Source of the DNA: a virus
DNA: 36,996 nucleotides
Virus record (IMG/VR): IMGVR_UViG_3300047557_000609
Span: 1-36,996 of that record
Strand: one strand, 5' to 3'
The notes below the pieces were generated by a model, which was not told the DNA's origin, made no database searches, and saw only the letters and a list, made by a program, of their open reading frames with translations. Shown here piece after piece: positions 2,469 to 21,269 of the stretch. The position numbers were made by a program, and so were the translations under genes. How positions within the stretch are numbered: position 1 is the stretch's first letter; every line of letters starts with the position of its first letter.

Positions 2469-3434
2469 ATGGCTTTAACAACTGCAACATATCCTGGTAG
2501 TTCTACTACCATTGTCAACAAGACTAATGCTGACAAATTCATTCCAGAAATCTGGTCTGACGAAGTACTCGCTGCTTATCAGAAAAACCTAGTATTGGCT
2601 AACCTCGTTAACAAAATGACGATGCGTGGCAAGAAGGGCGATACGCTCCATATTCCTAAGCCAACACGTGGTGCTGCTAATGCTAAGTTAGCTAACACTG
2701 TTGTAAACATTCAAGCTGATACCGAGAACGAAGTACAAGTCGTTATCAACAAGCACTTCGAATACTCACGTTTCATCGAGGACATCGTCGAAGTTCAAGC
2801 TTTGGCTTCTTTACGTCGCTTCTACACCGAAGATGCTGGTTATGCTTTGGCTAAGAAGGTTGACGATGAGCTCTTCCAATTGGGTCAAACCTTTGGTGAC
2901 GGTTCTTCTGACTGGACTCATAGCAACAGTTACTACATCGACGCTTCTACTGGTTTAACAGCTTATGCTGATGACACCGTAGTTCCTGCTGACGTATTCA
3001 CTGACGCTGGTTTCCGTGCGTTGATCAAGCTCATGGATGACGCTGATGTTCCAATGGATGGTCGTTTCTTTGTTGTTCCTCCATCACTCCGTGCTGCTAT
3101 CATGGGTATTGACCGTTATAACAGCTCTGACTTTGTTGATGGTCGTGGTGTTCAGAATGGTCAAATCGGTAGCCTCTATGGTATCGACATCTATGTTTCG
3201 AGCAACTGCCCAGTTATCGAGACTGATGCTCAGAACACAGCAACTGCTGGTGGCGACATCAAAGCTGCTATCCTTGCACACAAAGATGCAATGGTATTGG
3301 CTGAGCAAATGGCTGTTCGTTCACAGACTCAGTACAAGCAAGAGTATCTGTCTACGCTCTACACTGCCGACACATTGTTCGGTGTGAAGACTGTACGTCC
3401 AGAAGCTGGTTTCGTACTCGCTGTAAACGCTTAA
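2469..3434 (+). CDS. Major capsid protein (321 aa)
   Basis: The coat protein of the icosahedral head, HK97 fold. It follows the scaffold gene by 28 bp with a strong ribosome site (AGGAG before ATG 2469). The length is usual for T7/P22-type podovirus coats. The N-terminal part has the motif FIPEIWSDEVLAAYQKN and the middle has a conserved run around HFEYSRFIEDIVEVQA, as in this coat family; the C-terminus holds the segment around LAHKDAMVLAEQM. A strong intrinsic terminator lies 11 bp after the stop codon, which would give high coat mRNA levels and reduce read-through into the fibre region. Confidence 0.93.
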   Translation: MALTTATYPGSSTTIVNKTNADKFIPEIWSDEVLAAYQKNLVLANLVNKMTMRGKKGDTLHIPKPTRGAANAKLANTVVNIQADTENEVQVVINKHFEYSRFIEDIVEVQALASLRRFYTEDAGYALAKKVDDELFQLGQTFGDGSSDWTHSNSYYIDASTGLTAYADDTVVPADVFTDAGFRALIKLMDDADVPMDGRFFVVPPSLRAAIMGIDRYNSSDFVDGRGVQNGQIGSLYGIDIYVSSNCPVIETDAQNTATAGGDIKAAILAHKDAMVLAEQMAVRSQTQYKQEYLSTLYTADTLFGVKTVRPEAGFVLAVNA

Positions 3435-3444
3435 TAGCAACTCT

Positions 3445-3476
3445 AAAGCTCTCCAGTTTCGGCTGGAGAGTTTTTC
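3445..3476 (+). terminator. Intrinsic terminator after major capsid gene
   Basis: The perfect 8-bp stem CTCTCCAG (3449-3456) / CTGGAGAG (3463-3470) has a 6-nt loop and is followed by TTTTTCTTT. AAAG before the stem can pair with the T-tract and extend it. This is the clearest rightward terminator in the window. Confidence 0.92.
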
Positions 3477-3505
3477 TTTAAGTGCATTCACTGAGTGTAT
3501 TTAAA
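3477..3505 (+). other. Long imperfect RNA hairpin ahead of the HNH gene
   Basis: TTTAAGTGCATTCA (3477-3490) can pair with TGAGTGTATTTAAA (3492-3505). All 14 positions are Watson-Crick or G-U pairs in RNA, and the top opens to a small loop. It starts inside the T-tract of the capsid terminator and ends three bases before the HNH start codon. It could mask HNH translation, contribute to termination, or mark the edge of the inserted element. Confidence 0.55.
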
Positions 3506-3508
3506 CAA

Positions 3509-4006
3509 ATGAAATACTGTTATAAATGTAAGCAATCTAAAGAACTTGATTTATTTGGTAAAAATAAGTCTCGGAAAGACGGTTTAGCAGATGAATGCCG
3601 TCCTTGTAAACAAGAACAAGATAGAGATTATGCTTTACGAAACAGAGAGAAAGCAAAAGACAGAGCGTCTAAATGGTACTATCAAAATAAAGAATACGCT
3701 TTACAGAAGAATAAAACTTATTCAATAGAATGGCGAAAATATAATAAAGATCGTCATGCTGCACATGAGAATAAGCGAAGAGCATTAAAACTAAACGCAA
3801 CACCAAATTGGTTAACTAAAAAACATCATCAACAAATAGAAGCATTTTATTGGTTAACTAAATTACAAGAAGAATTAACAGATACAAAATATCATGTTGA
3901 TCATATAATACCTTTAAAAGGTAAAACAGTATGTGGGCTTCATGTGCCTTGGAATTTACAAGTATTATCTGCAAAAGACAATTTAAGTAAATCAAATAAA
4001 GTTTAG
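3509..4006 (+). CDS. HNH homing endonuclease 1 (165 aa)
   Basis: A free-standing HNH nuclease of the mobile, site-specific type. ATG 3509 gives MKYCYKCKQS, which begins the zinc ribbon (Cys4, Cys7, Cys30, Cys33); an upstream GTG at 3482 lies inside a hairpin and adds nine unlikely residues. The middle is a Lys-rich helix (about 40-100). The C-terminus carries the HNH core YHVDHIIPLKGK, then a conserved Asn in PWNLQVLSA and the end DNLSKSNK. It is inserted between the capsid terminator and the tail fibre, whose first in-frame codons begin 14 bp after its stop with no usual start codon. Its codons are A/T-rich compared with the neighbours, consistent with separate acquisition. No good ribosome site is visible. 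Confidence 0.88.
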   Translation: MKYCYKCKQSKELDLFGKNKSRKDGLADECRPCKQEQDRDYALRNREKAKDRASKWYYQNKEYALQKNKTYSIEWRKYNKDRHAAHENKRRALKLNATPNWLTKKHHQQIEAFYWLTKLQEELTDTKYHVDHIIPLKGKTVCGLHVPWNLQVLSAKDNLSKSNKV

Positions 4007-4020
4007 GAAGGTAGGGTAAA

Positions 4021-6813
4021 ATCATAGGTATTTATCGTGGAGCAGGTGGCTCTGGTGATGCAATAAATGATTCTTCCAGTGAAGCACTCATTACAATTCA
4101 AGCAAAAGACGCTGCACTTGCTGCACAGGCTGCTGCAGAGGCAGCTCAAGCTGCTGCAGAATTAGCAGAGACTAACGCTGAGACTGCAGAGACTAATGCA
4201 GAGACAGCAGAGACTAACGCAGAAACTGCTGCAACTAACGCTGCAAGTTCTGCCAGTGCTGCATCTACTTCTGCAAGCAACGCTTCAACATCTGCTACTA
4301 ACGCTGCATCATCTGCATCGGCTGCTTCAACCTCAGCCAGCAATGCTTCTACATCTGCAACAAATGCCTCAAACAGTGCATCTGCTGCGTCTACTTCTGC
4401 AACTAACGCATCTAATTCAGCTACCGCAGCTGCTACTTCCGCTACAAATGCTGCATCGTCTGCTACATCAGCTTCAGGAAGTGCTTCTACAGCTACTACT
4501 CAGGCTACTAACGCAGCAAACTCAGCTACCGCAGCAGCGACTTCTGCAACTAACGCATCTAATTCTGCGTCTGCAGCGTCAACTTCTGCTACGAATGCTG
4601 CTTCGTCTGCTACATCTGCTGCAGGATCAGCAACCACTGCAACTACCCAAGCCACTAATGCGAGCAATTCAGCTTCTGCTGCATCTACTTCAGCAACTAA
4701 CGCTAGTAACTCTGCCAGTGCTGCTGCTACATCGGCTACTAATGCCAGCAACTCAGCTTCTGCAGCGTCTACCTCAGCAACTAACGCAAGTAACTCAGCT
4801 TCTGCTGCTGCAACTTCAGCGACTAACGCTGCAGCTTCCTACGACTCATTCGATGATCGTTACTTAGGAGCTAAATCTTCTGCTCCGTCTGTAGACAATG
4901 ATGGTAATACTCTTTTAGTAGGTGCTTTGTATTTTAATACAACCACTAACGAGATGAAAGTCTGGAGTGGTTCTGCTTGGTTAGATGCCTATGCTTCGCT
5001 CTCTGGTGCTTTACTTGCTTCTAATAACTTATCTGACTTAGCTAACGCTGCTACTGCTAGGACTAACTTAGGAGTAGCGATTGGCACGAATGTCCAAGCA
5101 TGGGATGCTGACTTAGATACTTGGGCTACTAAGACTGCTCCATCTGGTACAGTAGTCGGAACTTCTGATACTCAGACTCTCTCTAACAAAACCTTAGCTG
5201 GTGTAACTAACTCAGGCAACCTCACCTTCACAGGCACAGGTAATCGTATTACTGGTGATTTTAGTAATGCTACTGTTGCTAATCGTGTAGCTTTTCAAAC
5301 TAGCACAACAAATTCAAATACCTATATTGAAATATTGCCTAATGGGACAGCTACTCAAGCAGGAATTGATTTAAATAATGCAGCAGACCCTACTAATTCA
5401 TCTCGCTTTACTTTATTGAACACTGGCTCTGATGTTCGTATAGCTTCAGCAATTAATGGAACAGGCACATACCTACCACTAACAATGTATACAGGCGGTA
5501 GCGAAAGACTACGCATAGATACAAGTGGTAATGTAGGTATTGGTACTACTACAACTAGTTCAAAATTAGAAGTTTTAGGCTCTGTTGTAAATTCAATCTC
5601 AAACGCTGGTACAGAAGACGCTGCCACAGTCACTATTACTAATAATGATGTATCAGGATTAGGTAGAATTGCTAAAACTCTATACCAAATCGGTGGCTTA
5701 TCTATTGCGTCTGTATCTGGAGTATATACAGTATTTAATGGCTCAAACGATATTGGAGGGGCTTTAGCATTTTCTACACAAACTAATGCTGCTGGTGGTG
5801 TTGTAGAGCGTATGCGTATCGATTCTAGTGGTAATGTAGGTATTGGTACTGCTAGTCCTGCTACACGCCTTCATGTTGTATCAGGCTCAAACCCACCAAT
5901 GCGAGTTGAAGCCACTATAGGTGCTAGTGTTATTGTTTTTAAAGACTCTACTACTGGAGCAACTTTACCGTATGTAGGAAGCATTGGAAACAATACCGTA
6001 TTTGGACAGTTTGGTGGTTCAGAATCAATGCGTATCGACTCCAGTGGTAATGTTGGTATTGGTACTACTAGTCCACAAACAAAACTACATTTACAAGATA
6101 ATGCTGCTGTATTTATACAAATGACCGATGCTGGTGACGGAGCAAGCAGAATAGGTCAAAATGGTACAGCATTAACTTTTGGGGTTGATGGTTCTAGCGG
6201 CACAACAGAACGGATGCGTATCGACTCTAATGGTAATGTTGGTATTGGTACTACTAGTCCATCTACAAAACTTCATGTTTCAGACGCAGCAGCAGTTTCA
6301 GGATTTAGCTCAACTTCTATTCGTGCTGCTCGTTCTAATTATGGTGCAGATTTTGTAGGATATATTGACCAAGGAGTTGGTCATGGTGCAATTATTTCTA
6401 CAGTAGACAATGGCACAGCTACAGAACGAATGAGGCTCACCTCTAGCGGTAACCTACAGTTCAACTCAGGTTACGGCTCAGTAGCAACTGCATACGGATG
6501 TCGTGCATGGGTGAACTTCAACGGTACTGGCACTGTAGCTATTCGTGGTAGTGGTAATGTAAGTTCTATTACTGATAATGGTACTGGTGATTATGGTGTT
6601 AACTTCACAAACGCAATGCCTGACACGAATTATTCTGTTGCTGGCTTAGGTAAAGAGTTTGACAGCACAAGCAATTCGTGGGTCAATCTCTTTCTTGGTA
6701 AGAAAACTATCTCCAATACCTTTCAAACTACAAATATTCAAGTAGTGACACAGAACTCTGCAAACGGTCAAGTTATTGACTGCCCTGTTGTTAATGTAGC
6801 AGTATTCCGCTAA
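4021..6813 (+). CDS. Tail fibre / receptor-binding protein with non-standard start (about 930 aa)
   Basis: A long fibre likely to bind the host surface. The frame is open from 4015 (TAG at 4012) to 6813, but the first ATG/GTG/TTG is TTG 4927, which would discard a well-formed N-terminus. Residues from 4021 read IIGIYRGAGGSGDA, which resembles the attachment end of related fibres. I set the start at ATC 4021 or ATA 4024 because AGGAAGG and GTAGGG lie 5-10 nt upstream. In order: attachment segment; about 250 residues of Ala/Ser/Thr/Asn repeats (4096-4836); a YLGAKSSAP/WSGSAWLD domain; four or five repeats around RIDSSGNVGIGT (5505-6450); and a C-terminal domain (WVNFNGTG to NVAVFR) widespread in phage and prophage fibres. 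A true N-terminal exon or a start altered by HNH insertion is possible. Confidence 0.85.
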   Translation: MIGIYRGAGGSGDAINDSSSEALITIQAKDAALAAQAAAEAAQAAAELAETNAETAETNAETAETNAETAATNAASSASAASTSASNASTSATNAASSASAASTSASNASTSATNASNSASAASTSATNASNSATAAATSATNAASSATSASGSASTATTQATNAANSATAAATSATNASNSASAASTSATNAASSATSAAGSATTATTQATNASNSASAASTSATNASNSASAAATSATNASNSASAASTSATNASNSASAAATSATNAAASYDSFDDRYLGAKSSAPSVDNDGNTLLVGALYFNTTTNEMKVWSGSAWLDAYASLSGALLASNNLSDLANAATARTNLGVAIGTNVQAWDADLDTWATKTAPSGTVVGTSDTQTLSNKTLAGVTNSGNLTFTGTGNRITGDFSNATVANRVAFQTSTTNSNTYIEILPNGTATQAGIDLNNAADPTNSSRFTLLNTGSDVRIASAINGTGTYLPLTMYTGGSERLRIDTSGNVGIGTTTTSSKLEVLGSVVNSISNAGTEDAATVTITNNDVSGLGRIAKTLYQIGGLSIASVSGVYTVFNGSNDIGGALAFSTQTNAAGGVVERMRIDSSGNVGIGTASPATRLHVVSGSNPPMRVEATIGASVIVFKDSTTGATLPYVGSIGNNTVFGQFGGSESMRIDSSGNVGIGTTSPQTKLHLQDNAAVFIQMTDAGDGASRIGQNGTALTFGVDGSSGTTERMRIDSNGNVGIGTTSPSTKLHVSDAAAVSGFSSTSIRAARSNYGADFVGYIDQGVGHGAIISTVDNGTATERMRLTSSGNLQFNSGYGSVATAYGCRAWVNFNGTGTVAIRGSGNVSSITDNGTGDYGVNFTNAMPDTNYSVAGLGKEFDSTSNSWVNLFLGKKTISNTFQTTNIQVVTQNSANGQVIDCPVVNVAVFR
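4096..4836 (+). repeat. Low-complexity Ala/Ser/Thr/Asn coding repeat
   Basis: Degenerate tandem repeats of 12-45 nt built on codons for Ser-Ala-Thr-Asn-Ala-Ser (for example TCTGCAACTAACGCA and variants) code for a shaft of the tail fibre, predicted to form a trimeric helical or coiled rod. Such repeats gain and lose units by recombination, so the length may vary between relatives. The repeats also create long false open frames on the minus strand. Confidence 0.85.
5505..6260 (+). repeat. Dispersed fibre-domain repeat (RIDSSGNVGIGT type)
   Basis: Four well-conserved copies of a motif coding for R(I/M)RID-(S/T)SGNVGIGT occur at about 5505, 5806, 6024 and 6207. A degenerate fifth (RMRLTSSGNLQF) lies at about 6426. 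Spacing is about 180-300 nt. They mark repeated beta-structured modules and offer sites for recombination inside the gene. Confidence 0.85.
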
Positions 6814-19216: not shown

Positions 19217-19365
19217 TTCGATTCCTTATAATTTTCTATTGCTCTGAGGAACAGGGTTTCTAAGCCAACCTGAATGAGAAGAGTCTTAGCTTCTTCGTCT
19301 AGTTCTACTTCCATATCAGCAGACCCATCCTCATTCTCAGTTAAGTTTAGCAGTTCAATCTTCAT
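19213..19365 (-). CDS. Small acidic conserved protein (50 aa)
   Basis: Reads MKIELLNLTENEDGSADMEV, then a helix with EEAKTLLIQVGLETLFLRAIE. Predicted beta hairpin plus helix. It starts in the stop codon of the ribonucleotide reductase gene (ATGA), so it is translated with it. It could be an accessory to nucleotide metabolism, but only the position says so. Confidence 0.75.
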   Translation of the reverse strand: MKIELLNLTENEDGSADMEVELDEEAKTLLIQVGLETLFLRAIENYKESK

Positions 19366-21269
19366 TTAACTGGGCATGCACCACTGGCACACTCGTCCCC
19401 ACCGTCAAAGCTTGCTTCATCAATCTTAGTAATCAAACGAGTCTTAGCGACTAGCTCTTCATACTGCTCTTTAGTAATCTCCTCCAAAGGTGCTTGGTGG
19501 AATCCATGCTCATTGTGTAGCAAGAACGACAAGGACTTATGATTGTTCTTATAGTTCTTAGCAAGGTACTTCTTGATCTCAGGTAGTTCTTCCTTACGAT
19601 AATACACTGTACAGGAAACACTATTATCTGACCAATGAGCTTGCAACCACTTCACAACTTCCAACTGATCAATCGCAGTCATCTCAGCAGCTAACTTTAT
19701 TCCCTCTGGATAGCAGAACGGGAAGCTAACTACCATTGTACTGTGATCTTCACTACCATCAAAGTTACGCTGATACTCCACAGGATAGCCGTGATCACGA
19801 CAGACTTGTACGAGAGCGTGGTCTGCTGCAATACGAATCCTACGAATCATGTACCGAGAATACGCAGGGTGGCAACCAGAAGTTACACCTGGAAGCAATG
19901 ATAATGTACCTGAAGGTTTAACAGTGGTAAGTTTTACTGACTCTGGGAAGCCATGCTTAGCACTGTACTCCTTATCGAAAGCTCGTAACTCTTCATAAGC
20001 TTCAGATAGCCAGCTACGTTGATCATCACTTGCTTGCAAGACACCAGTAACTCCGATGCCCATCCGCATATTACTATGTACAATATCTGCAGTCTCTTCG
20101 AGGTGGCAGGGTAAAGCAAGACTGTGCTTATTGATACGATATAGCAGCTTACAGATGTCAATGAACTCAGCTTTGTTCGTGACATTAGGCAGATATATCT
20201 CAGCTAAACAACAAGTCTCATAAGGAGCTAGGGACTGCTCAGCACAAGGATTGTAACCCATCACCTTAGGATCAGGATATTGAGTCTCTCCCAATCGTCC
20301 AATCTTTCTGCTAAGCTTTAGGTTGATTAAACCATAAGGCTCGCCCTTGCCTTCGTACCCATCCCAGAAATACTCATGGAGATCTTTGAAGTCATTGCAT
20401 ACTACGCTGTTATTAGACATAGCTCTCCACGAAGGAATGTTACCCATGTCCCACCGTTTAGCCAGCAAGTATTCAACATCATCAGGATCACCAATAGCAA
20501 TCTGAGCAGAGCGTCTTACATTACCTGCTACTACAATTGCACCGATAATGTTCATGATGTCGAGGCAGTCGATAGAGCGTAACTGTCTACCAGCTCGCTT
20601 CTCCAAGATCTCACTGATCTTAGCAATACCCCAACATAAATCCTCAGCACCTGAAGCAGTGCCACCAAAGCCCTTGATAGGAGAACCCTTACCACGAACT
20701 AGTTTCGTTGAATAAGTAAAGGTTGTAGCAGTGTTCGCTAAGAAGGCAGCCTTCAATGTTTTACCGAGGAGCTTAACCCATCCTTCACGAGAGTCAGGTA
20801 CAATAAAGTCAGCATCATTACTATCAACACGAGTCGGAGCAGCAAAGCTAACATTAACTGGAGGAAGCTTAGACACATGCTCACGTTGGATGTTGTAGCC
20901 TACTCCTGAACCTAGCATCAATAGATCCATTGCCCATGTGAACGGACGCACTGGCTGATCTACTACAGTGAAGGCACAGTTCTGTAGACTAGCTAGACCT
21001 AAGCGACCTACTGTGTCAGTGCCCAGCTGCCATAAGAAGCGACCTGCTACAGTGCCTTTCAATTCCATCAGATACTTCTGTAAACGTTTCTTCTCAGCAT
21101 CAGTAAAGCCACACTGAAGCTGGTCATTAGACGCTGTTACGACACGATTAACTGTGTCTGCAAACTCTTCTGTAGGACTACCAGGATCTGCTTCGTTCAA
21201 TCGACGAGCGTATGTCCTTTTGTATGTTATATAGCCTACGGTACTAAACGGTGTGTTAAATTCTGTCAT
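19362..21269 (-). CDS. nrdJ: Class II (adenosylcobalamin) ribonucleotide reductase, monomeric type (635 aa)
   Basis: Reduces ribonucleotides to deoxynucleotides using adenosylcobalamin to make the thiyl radical, thus supplying dNTPs for phage DNA. Visible: the first redox Cys in LQNCAF (Cys98), the active-site Asn340-Pro-Cys342-Ala-Glu344 (NPCAEQSLAP), the phosphate-binding region TVKPSGTLSLLPGVTSG, and the C-terminal redox pair CASGAC (Cys627, Cys632). The order and the single chain match the monomeric ribonucleoside-triphosphate reductase type rather than the NrdAB pair; no small subunit is encoded. It needs B12 made or imported by the host. It is translationally joined to small genes at both ends. 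Confidence 0.93.
   Translation of the reverse strand: MTEFNTPFSTVGYITYKRTYARRLNEADPGSPTEEFADTVNRVVTASNDQLQCGFTDAEKKRLQKYLMELKGTVAGRFLWQLGTDTVGRLGLASLQNCAFTVVDQPVRPFTWAMDLLMLGSGVGYNIQREHVSKLPPVNVSFAAPTRVDSNDADFIVPDSREGWVKLLGKTLKAAFLANTATTFTYSTKLVRGKGSPIKGFGGTASGAEDLCWGIAKISEILEKRAGRQLRSIDCLDIMNIIGAIVVAGNVRRSAQIAIGDPDDVEYLLAKRWDMGNIPSWRAMSNNSVVCNDFKDLHEYFWDGYEGKGEPYGLINLKLSRKIGRLGETQYPDPKVMGYNPCAEQSLAPYETCCLAEIYLPNVTNKAEFIDICKLLYRINKHSLALPCHLEETADIVHSNMRMGIGVTGVLQASDDQRSWLSEAYEELRAFDKEYSAKHGFPESVKLTTVKPSGTLSLLPGVTSGCHPAYSRYMIRRIRIAADHALVQVCRDHGYPVEYQRNFDGSEDHSTMVVSFPFCYPEGIKLAAEMTAIDQLEVVKWLQAHWSDNSVSCTVYYRKEELPEIKKYLAKNYKNNHKSLSFLLHNEHGFHQAPLEEITKEQYEELVAKTRLITKIDEASFDGGDECASGACPVK

Follow-up and report, generated by a model that had tools for sequence, protein, structure and literature searches.

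The capsid-fibre junction

The window analysed here is a 36,996-nucleotide stretch from an uncultured phage (positions 1 to 36,996 of IMG/VR record IMGVR_UViG_3300047557_000609). The genes and features of the junction all lie on its plus strand. The major capsid protein gene (2469-3434; phrog_267, E 1.9e-50; PF19821) starts with ATG and is followed by an HNH endonuclease gene (3509-4006) and a tail fibre gene (4024-6813), the last assigned through PHROG tail fibre families and homologues that also stand after a capsid gene. Two stable hairpins are arranged in tandem behind the capsid gene (3445-3504). One is terminator-like with a T-rich tail (3445-3474; MFE -18.5 kcal/mol, z -4.8) and was unlisted by the consensus scanner; the other is smaller (3478-3504; MFE -10 kcal/mol, z -4.3).

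The HNH protein has 165 aa when read from ATG 3509, a longer frame from GTG 3482 being possible. It matches phrog_1035 (endonuclease VII; E 5.4e-23) and phrog_26577 (unknown function; E 4.7e-20), and residues D131, H132, N149 and N158 are invariant among 10 homologues. Pfam gave no match at E 0.01; the nuclease domain is recognized from the PHROG HNH/endonuclease families together with the invariant residues.

The stop codon of the HNH gene, TAG 4004-4006, falls inside the purine-rich leader of the fibre gene. This Shine-Dalgarno-like (SD-like) leader, AGGAAGGTAGGG and then TAAAATC (4005-4016), carries AGGAAGG and GTAGGG. The form AGGAAGGTAGGGTAAA is conserved in relatives, identically in L095, L096, L097, L103 and L105 and as a variant in L098, L100, L101 and L104. 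The spacing is unusual, the best match (AAGG) standing 12 nt and a nearer AGGG 7 nt from the start proposed below; many of the relatives with an AUA, AUU or AUC start (AUH) have AGGAG 6-7 nt upstream of it. RNA structure at the fibre start showed nothing unusual, and no phage-encoded tRNA for reading AUA was found. A sequence resembling the leader, GAAGGTAGGGTTAAA, is also present at the end of the scaffold gene (2423-2437; chance expectation 0.04) and is probably a coincidence, since class-2 relatives do not have the copy there.

An earlier, sequence-only reading had drawn attention to the lack of an ordinary start codon for some 900 bp of the fibre frame, and this was borne out. The frame is closed upstream by TAG 4012-4014 and open from 4015 to the stop at 6813; its codons from 4015 are GGT AAA ATC ATA GGT ATT TAT CGT (GKIIGIYRGAGGSGDA...), and the earliest ATG, GTG or TTG (NTG) is TTG 4927-4929, 912 nt in. 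The HNH stop does lie, as that reading had it, 14 nt before ATC 4021, and 17 nt before ATA 4024. Entry by a frameshift out of the HNH frame was considered and rejected, as the stop at 4012 in the fibre frame would block it. So great an NTG-free distance is unique to the fibre gene within the window's evident genes. It is nevertheless unsurprising, because a shaft of Ala, Ser, Thr and Asn hardly uses Met, Val or TTG codons; in relatives with ATG or TTG starts the median distance to the next NTG is 645-909 nt. The true anomaly, judged from the alignment, is that NTG is missing at the very column where all the homologues start, and this is not chance.

The fibre start codon and its recurrence

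Relatives were recruited with the capsid protein (80 among the matches listed). The homologous fibres found after the capsid gene begin M/L-[A/G/S/P]-IYRG or with a close variant, and ATA 4024-4026 of the window aligns with their first codon, an ATG, TTG or GTG. The closest relative among the matches listed, L007, has a 98% identical capsid and is without the HNH gene; it reads ATC TTG GCA ATT TAT CGT, against ATC ATA GGT ATT TAT CGT in the window. The sequence-only reading had offered initiation at AUC 4021 or AUA 4024 and suggested aligning the N-terminus with HNH-free homologues. That alignment speaks for the AUA, which coincides exactly with the TTG of L007, so that ATC 4021 is one codon too early. 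The codon matching ATC 4021 is moreover UCU, ACC or AAC in several AUH relatives and is implausible as a start, although ATC 4021, which adjoins the ATA, could act as a second initiation point. Residue 2 of AUH fibres is always Ser, Ala, Gly or Pro, like that of their ATG homologues, fitting removal of an N-terminal Met. The fibre gene of this phage thus almost certainly begins at AUA 4024, which gives it 929 codons before the stop.

All of IMG/VR was scanned for ATA, ATT or ATC at the fibre start column, and 22 more contigs emerged. In 21 of these there is no NTG from the in-frame stop, 12-48 nt upstream, to the column; the remaining contig, L088, carries a TTG in frame at -51. The next NTG downstream, where present, is 282-1263 nt away and its position is not conserved. 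A control scan for codons with a middle base other than T at the same column gave 35 contigs, 34 of them with enough upstream sequence, and an in-frame NTG stands 3-36 nt upstream of the column in every one of the 34 (Fisher p 1.6e-14 against the AUH contigs, a guide only because the contigs are related). Codons at the column that are not near-cognate thus always have an upstream NTG and AUH codons almost never do, which identifies the AUH codon as the start. The window itself is free of NTG all the way from the upstream in-frame stop to the conserved N-terminus, and independent relatives have AUH at the homologous position.

Pairs of AUH fibres differ at 258, 176 and 508 sites in codon positions 1, 2 and 3, respectively, over codons 14-33, which lie outside the search pattern. 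The third-position excess is stronger in codons 2-13, but there the pattern itself fixes residues. The excess at codons 14-33 argues that the N-terminus is translated in AUH phages; by this comparison, the N-terminal fibre codons are under purifying selection.

Start codons in 147 non-redundant junctions are ATG (at least 99), TTG (at least 26), GTG (at least 1), ATT (9), ATA (7) and ATC (5), numbers in which AUH is over-represented because the ATH scan was complete and NTG was counted only among the matches listed. The capsid-recruited sample (48 fibres, among the matches listed) has ATG in 31, TTG in 15 and ATT in two, i.e. a non-ATG start in 17/48. On the same contigs, the capsid gene has an ATG start in all 103 cases that were resolved (five were unresolved), which makes non-AUG initiation a feature of the fibre gene. 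When the AUH label is mapped on a capsid tree of 119 rows, 16 changes are needed, and well-supported branches force 14 of them; these are changes of state rather than proven independent mutations, because fibre ends are exchanged between genomes.

The HNH gene and the exchanged block

The HNH gene, the leader, the AUA start and the first fibre bases form a block (3511-4034) that is 99-100% identical to contig L096 and absent from L007. The capsid and fibre flanks of the same pair are mostly 69-90% identical, and the common identity stops at 4034, in the fourth fibre codon. The empty site in L007 reads TTTAAACAAAT followed by AAGGAGATAGATCTTGGCAATTTATCG, and the block replaces its AAGGAGATAGATC TTG GCA. 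The smaller hairpin (3478-3504) is kept in empty-site relatives, its sequence being nearly the same upstream of the TTG in L007 and L009. Block-wise exchange of the same kind is seen in the pairs L100/L104 and L021/L093. With its nuclease domain, its presence or absence at one site and its block-wise exchange (window versus L007 and L096), the gene resembles a free-standing homing endonuclease.

Junctions bearing an HNH gene are AUH in 11 of 14 cases and the others in 7 of 105, in a sample partly recruited by AUH; with independent pairs the association has a median p of 0.016. Owing to this recruitment a scan centred on the HNH gene was made, in which about four of about 11 distinct HNH-fibre junctions were AUH among the matches listed, and the remainder had ATG, TTG or a start inside the 3' end of the HNH gene that adds 12 fibre codons. 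AUH is also found in HNH-free lineages (L088, L107, L095, L103/L105, L094/L102 and L092), so the HNH gene is a frequent carrier of the AUH start and not its sole source. On these comparisons the link is a tendency, and fibres behind an HNH gene can have ATG or TTG. The proposal that insertion of the HNH gene displaced or altered the start is therefore upheld for this lineage, where one exchanged block has replaced a TTG of the L007 type, and fails as a general cause on account of the HNH-free AUH relatives.

In L097, which lies on the same contig as L338, the fibre start and the HNH stop codon overlap in the sequence AUAG, like the AUGA of coupled genes. Many relatives begin the fibre with an NTG that precedes the usual column by 36 nt, which adds 12 residues (e.g. 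LFCDFPKHKHLK before CTIYRG; L337, L340-L343, L419, L421-L424, L426-L432, L435, L436, L439, L441-L444, L447, L448, L450 and L451). In L337 and L340-L343 the extended start sits in the 3' end of the HNH gene, and the 12-residue extension appears, from these sequences, to be a further means by which an HNH gene replaces the fibre start.

Interpretation and known parallels

It is very probable that the fibre starts at AUA 4024, that the leader determines this position, and that leader, AUA and HNH gene arrived together in one exchanged block, the leader and AUA taking the place of a TTG start. The purine-rich leader would place the ribosome at the AUA, which would be read by the ordinary initiator tRNA and give initiation with fMet, and ribosomes that terminate on the HNH gene, 17 nt upstream, would probably help by reinitiating. 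Weak, SD-driven initiation of this kind would probably keep fibre output low, which would suit a low-copy fibre beside a high-copy capsid. In S. aureus, AUA and AUU starts with a long SD yield ~10-30% of AUG output (PMC13009471). In vitro, IF3 requires the first two base pairs to be correct, with weak third-base pairs penalised and sometimes tolerated, and the use of AUN at the fibre start fits this tolerance at the third base (PMC10158994).

Several other accounts of the missing start fare badly. A sequencing or assembly error, the true base at 4026 being G, would need one substitution to give ATG GGT ATT TAT, close to L011, and the sequence-only reading had allowed for one wrong base. The independent contig L096, however, carries this ATA junction unchanged, and the 22 further AUH contigs show three different bases in the third position; these facts and the control scan leave the error next to no probability. 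A start codon supplied by an intron or an upstream exon, also suggested in that reading, gains some appeal from the upstream HNH gene, such genes being a companion of many group I introns. It is nonetheless extremely improbable: the capsid-fibre gap can be as small as 83-114 nt in HNH-free AUH relatives, which leaves too little space for a group I intron, an Rfam search found no intron, and the difference from the empty site is a replaced leader and start, not a coding frame cleanly interrupted by an insert. As general explanations, error and intron are both excluded by these sequence comparisons. Hardly more credible is a start at TTG 4927, for all that this is the first conventional start of the frame, or a dead gene. 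The scatter of the next NTG in AUH relatives, the purifying selection on the N-terminal codons that would be discarded and a frame open for >930 codons all speak against it, and the TTG was rejected as the start.

As to the role of the weak start, the chances are about even that it reflects adaptive tuning independent of the HNH gene, with UUG, AUU, AUA and AUC repeatedly selected for low fibre copy and the HNH linkage due to hitch-hiking or to coupling with an upstream translated gene. The TTG starts of 15/48 capsid-recruited fibres (among the matches listed), beside a capsid gene that is always ATG, and the AUH starts of HNH-free lineages agree with tuning; most fibres still use ATG, however, and tuning alone does not explain the HNH association. 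Alternatively, AUH might be mainly a mark of immunity: the endonuclease would recognize the conserved fibre start region, which the block replaces so that its own genome stays uncut, weak initiation would be a tolerated side effect, and HNH-free AUH phages would be relics or resistant types. The HNH genes lie precisely at the 5' end of the fibre gene and in most cases alter its start, whether to AUA/AUU, to a new TTG or ATG, or to an HNH-internal start with the 12-codon extension; the exchanged block stops just past the start; and free-standing HNH endonucleases of T4 act beside their targets with co-conversion (PMC2988022). Against this, some HNH-bearing fibres retain ATG or TTG, and immunity would need no changed start codon if the insertion by itself splits the site. 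We regard the immunity mark as possible, though tentatively so. It is unlikely, if conceivable, that a homing HNH cassette brings in the AUH start region both to capture translational control of the fibre and to hide the site, the near-cognate start then serving as the immunity mark.

The preferred reading, an AUA start delivered with an exchanged HNH block, has partial parallels elsewhere. In E. coli, infC and pcnB start with AUU. Bacterial genes with AUU or AUA starts also include infC, cvfC1, ccpN and citZ (PMC13009471), and they resemble the fibre gene in the AUH codon, the purine-rich SD and the expected low output. They differ in being cellular and in several cases regulatory, whereas here a structural gene of a phage virion is involved, and three AUH codons interchange between close relatives in linkage with an HNH gene. 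The T4 mobA gene is said to be tied, following Bonocora and colleagues in 2011, to a 50-nt ribosomal bypass in gene 60. MobA and gene 60 likewise join an HNH gene to a translational oddity in its target, but that case involves a split gene and a ribosome hop and the present one an altered start codon (PMC2988022). Free-standing mob genes of T4-like phages share the location between genes, the likely target alongside and block-wise exchange, and are the nearest model for a start region that shields its genome from the endonuclease; in the window, unlike there, the downstream gene has had its ribosome-binding site and start codon replaced by the block (PMC2988022). Saffermanviridae and similar podophages (Anabaena phage A-4L, Pf-WMP3) have a ~33% identical capsid protein and tail genes after the capsid gene, but the cultured-phage collection contained no IYRG-type fibre start and no phage with the same fibre N-terminus.

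AUH starts are known for few bacterial genes, and the fibre would be a recurrent case in a phage virion gene. In the literature, covered in part and without preprints, no phage tail fibre was reported to have an AUH start, and no phage virion gene to have a recurrent one. Standard gene callers take only ATG, GTG and TTG; fibre genes with AUH starts are therefore truncated or lost, which matters because fibre genes are central to predicting phage hosts. A single virion gene that switches among AUG, UUG, AUU, AUA and AUC between close relatives offers a natural series for studying start-codon discrimination by IF3 and why a phage wants a weak start. The link to the HNH cassette points to an ability of selfish endonucleases to rewrite the start of translation.

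Elsewhere in the window, a gene on the minus strand (19362-21269) carries domains of a B12-dependent (class II) ribonucleotide reductase.
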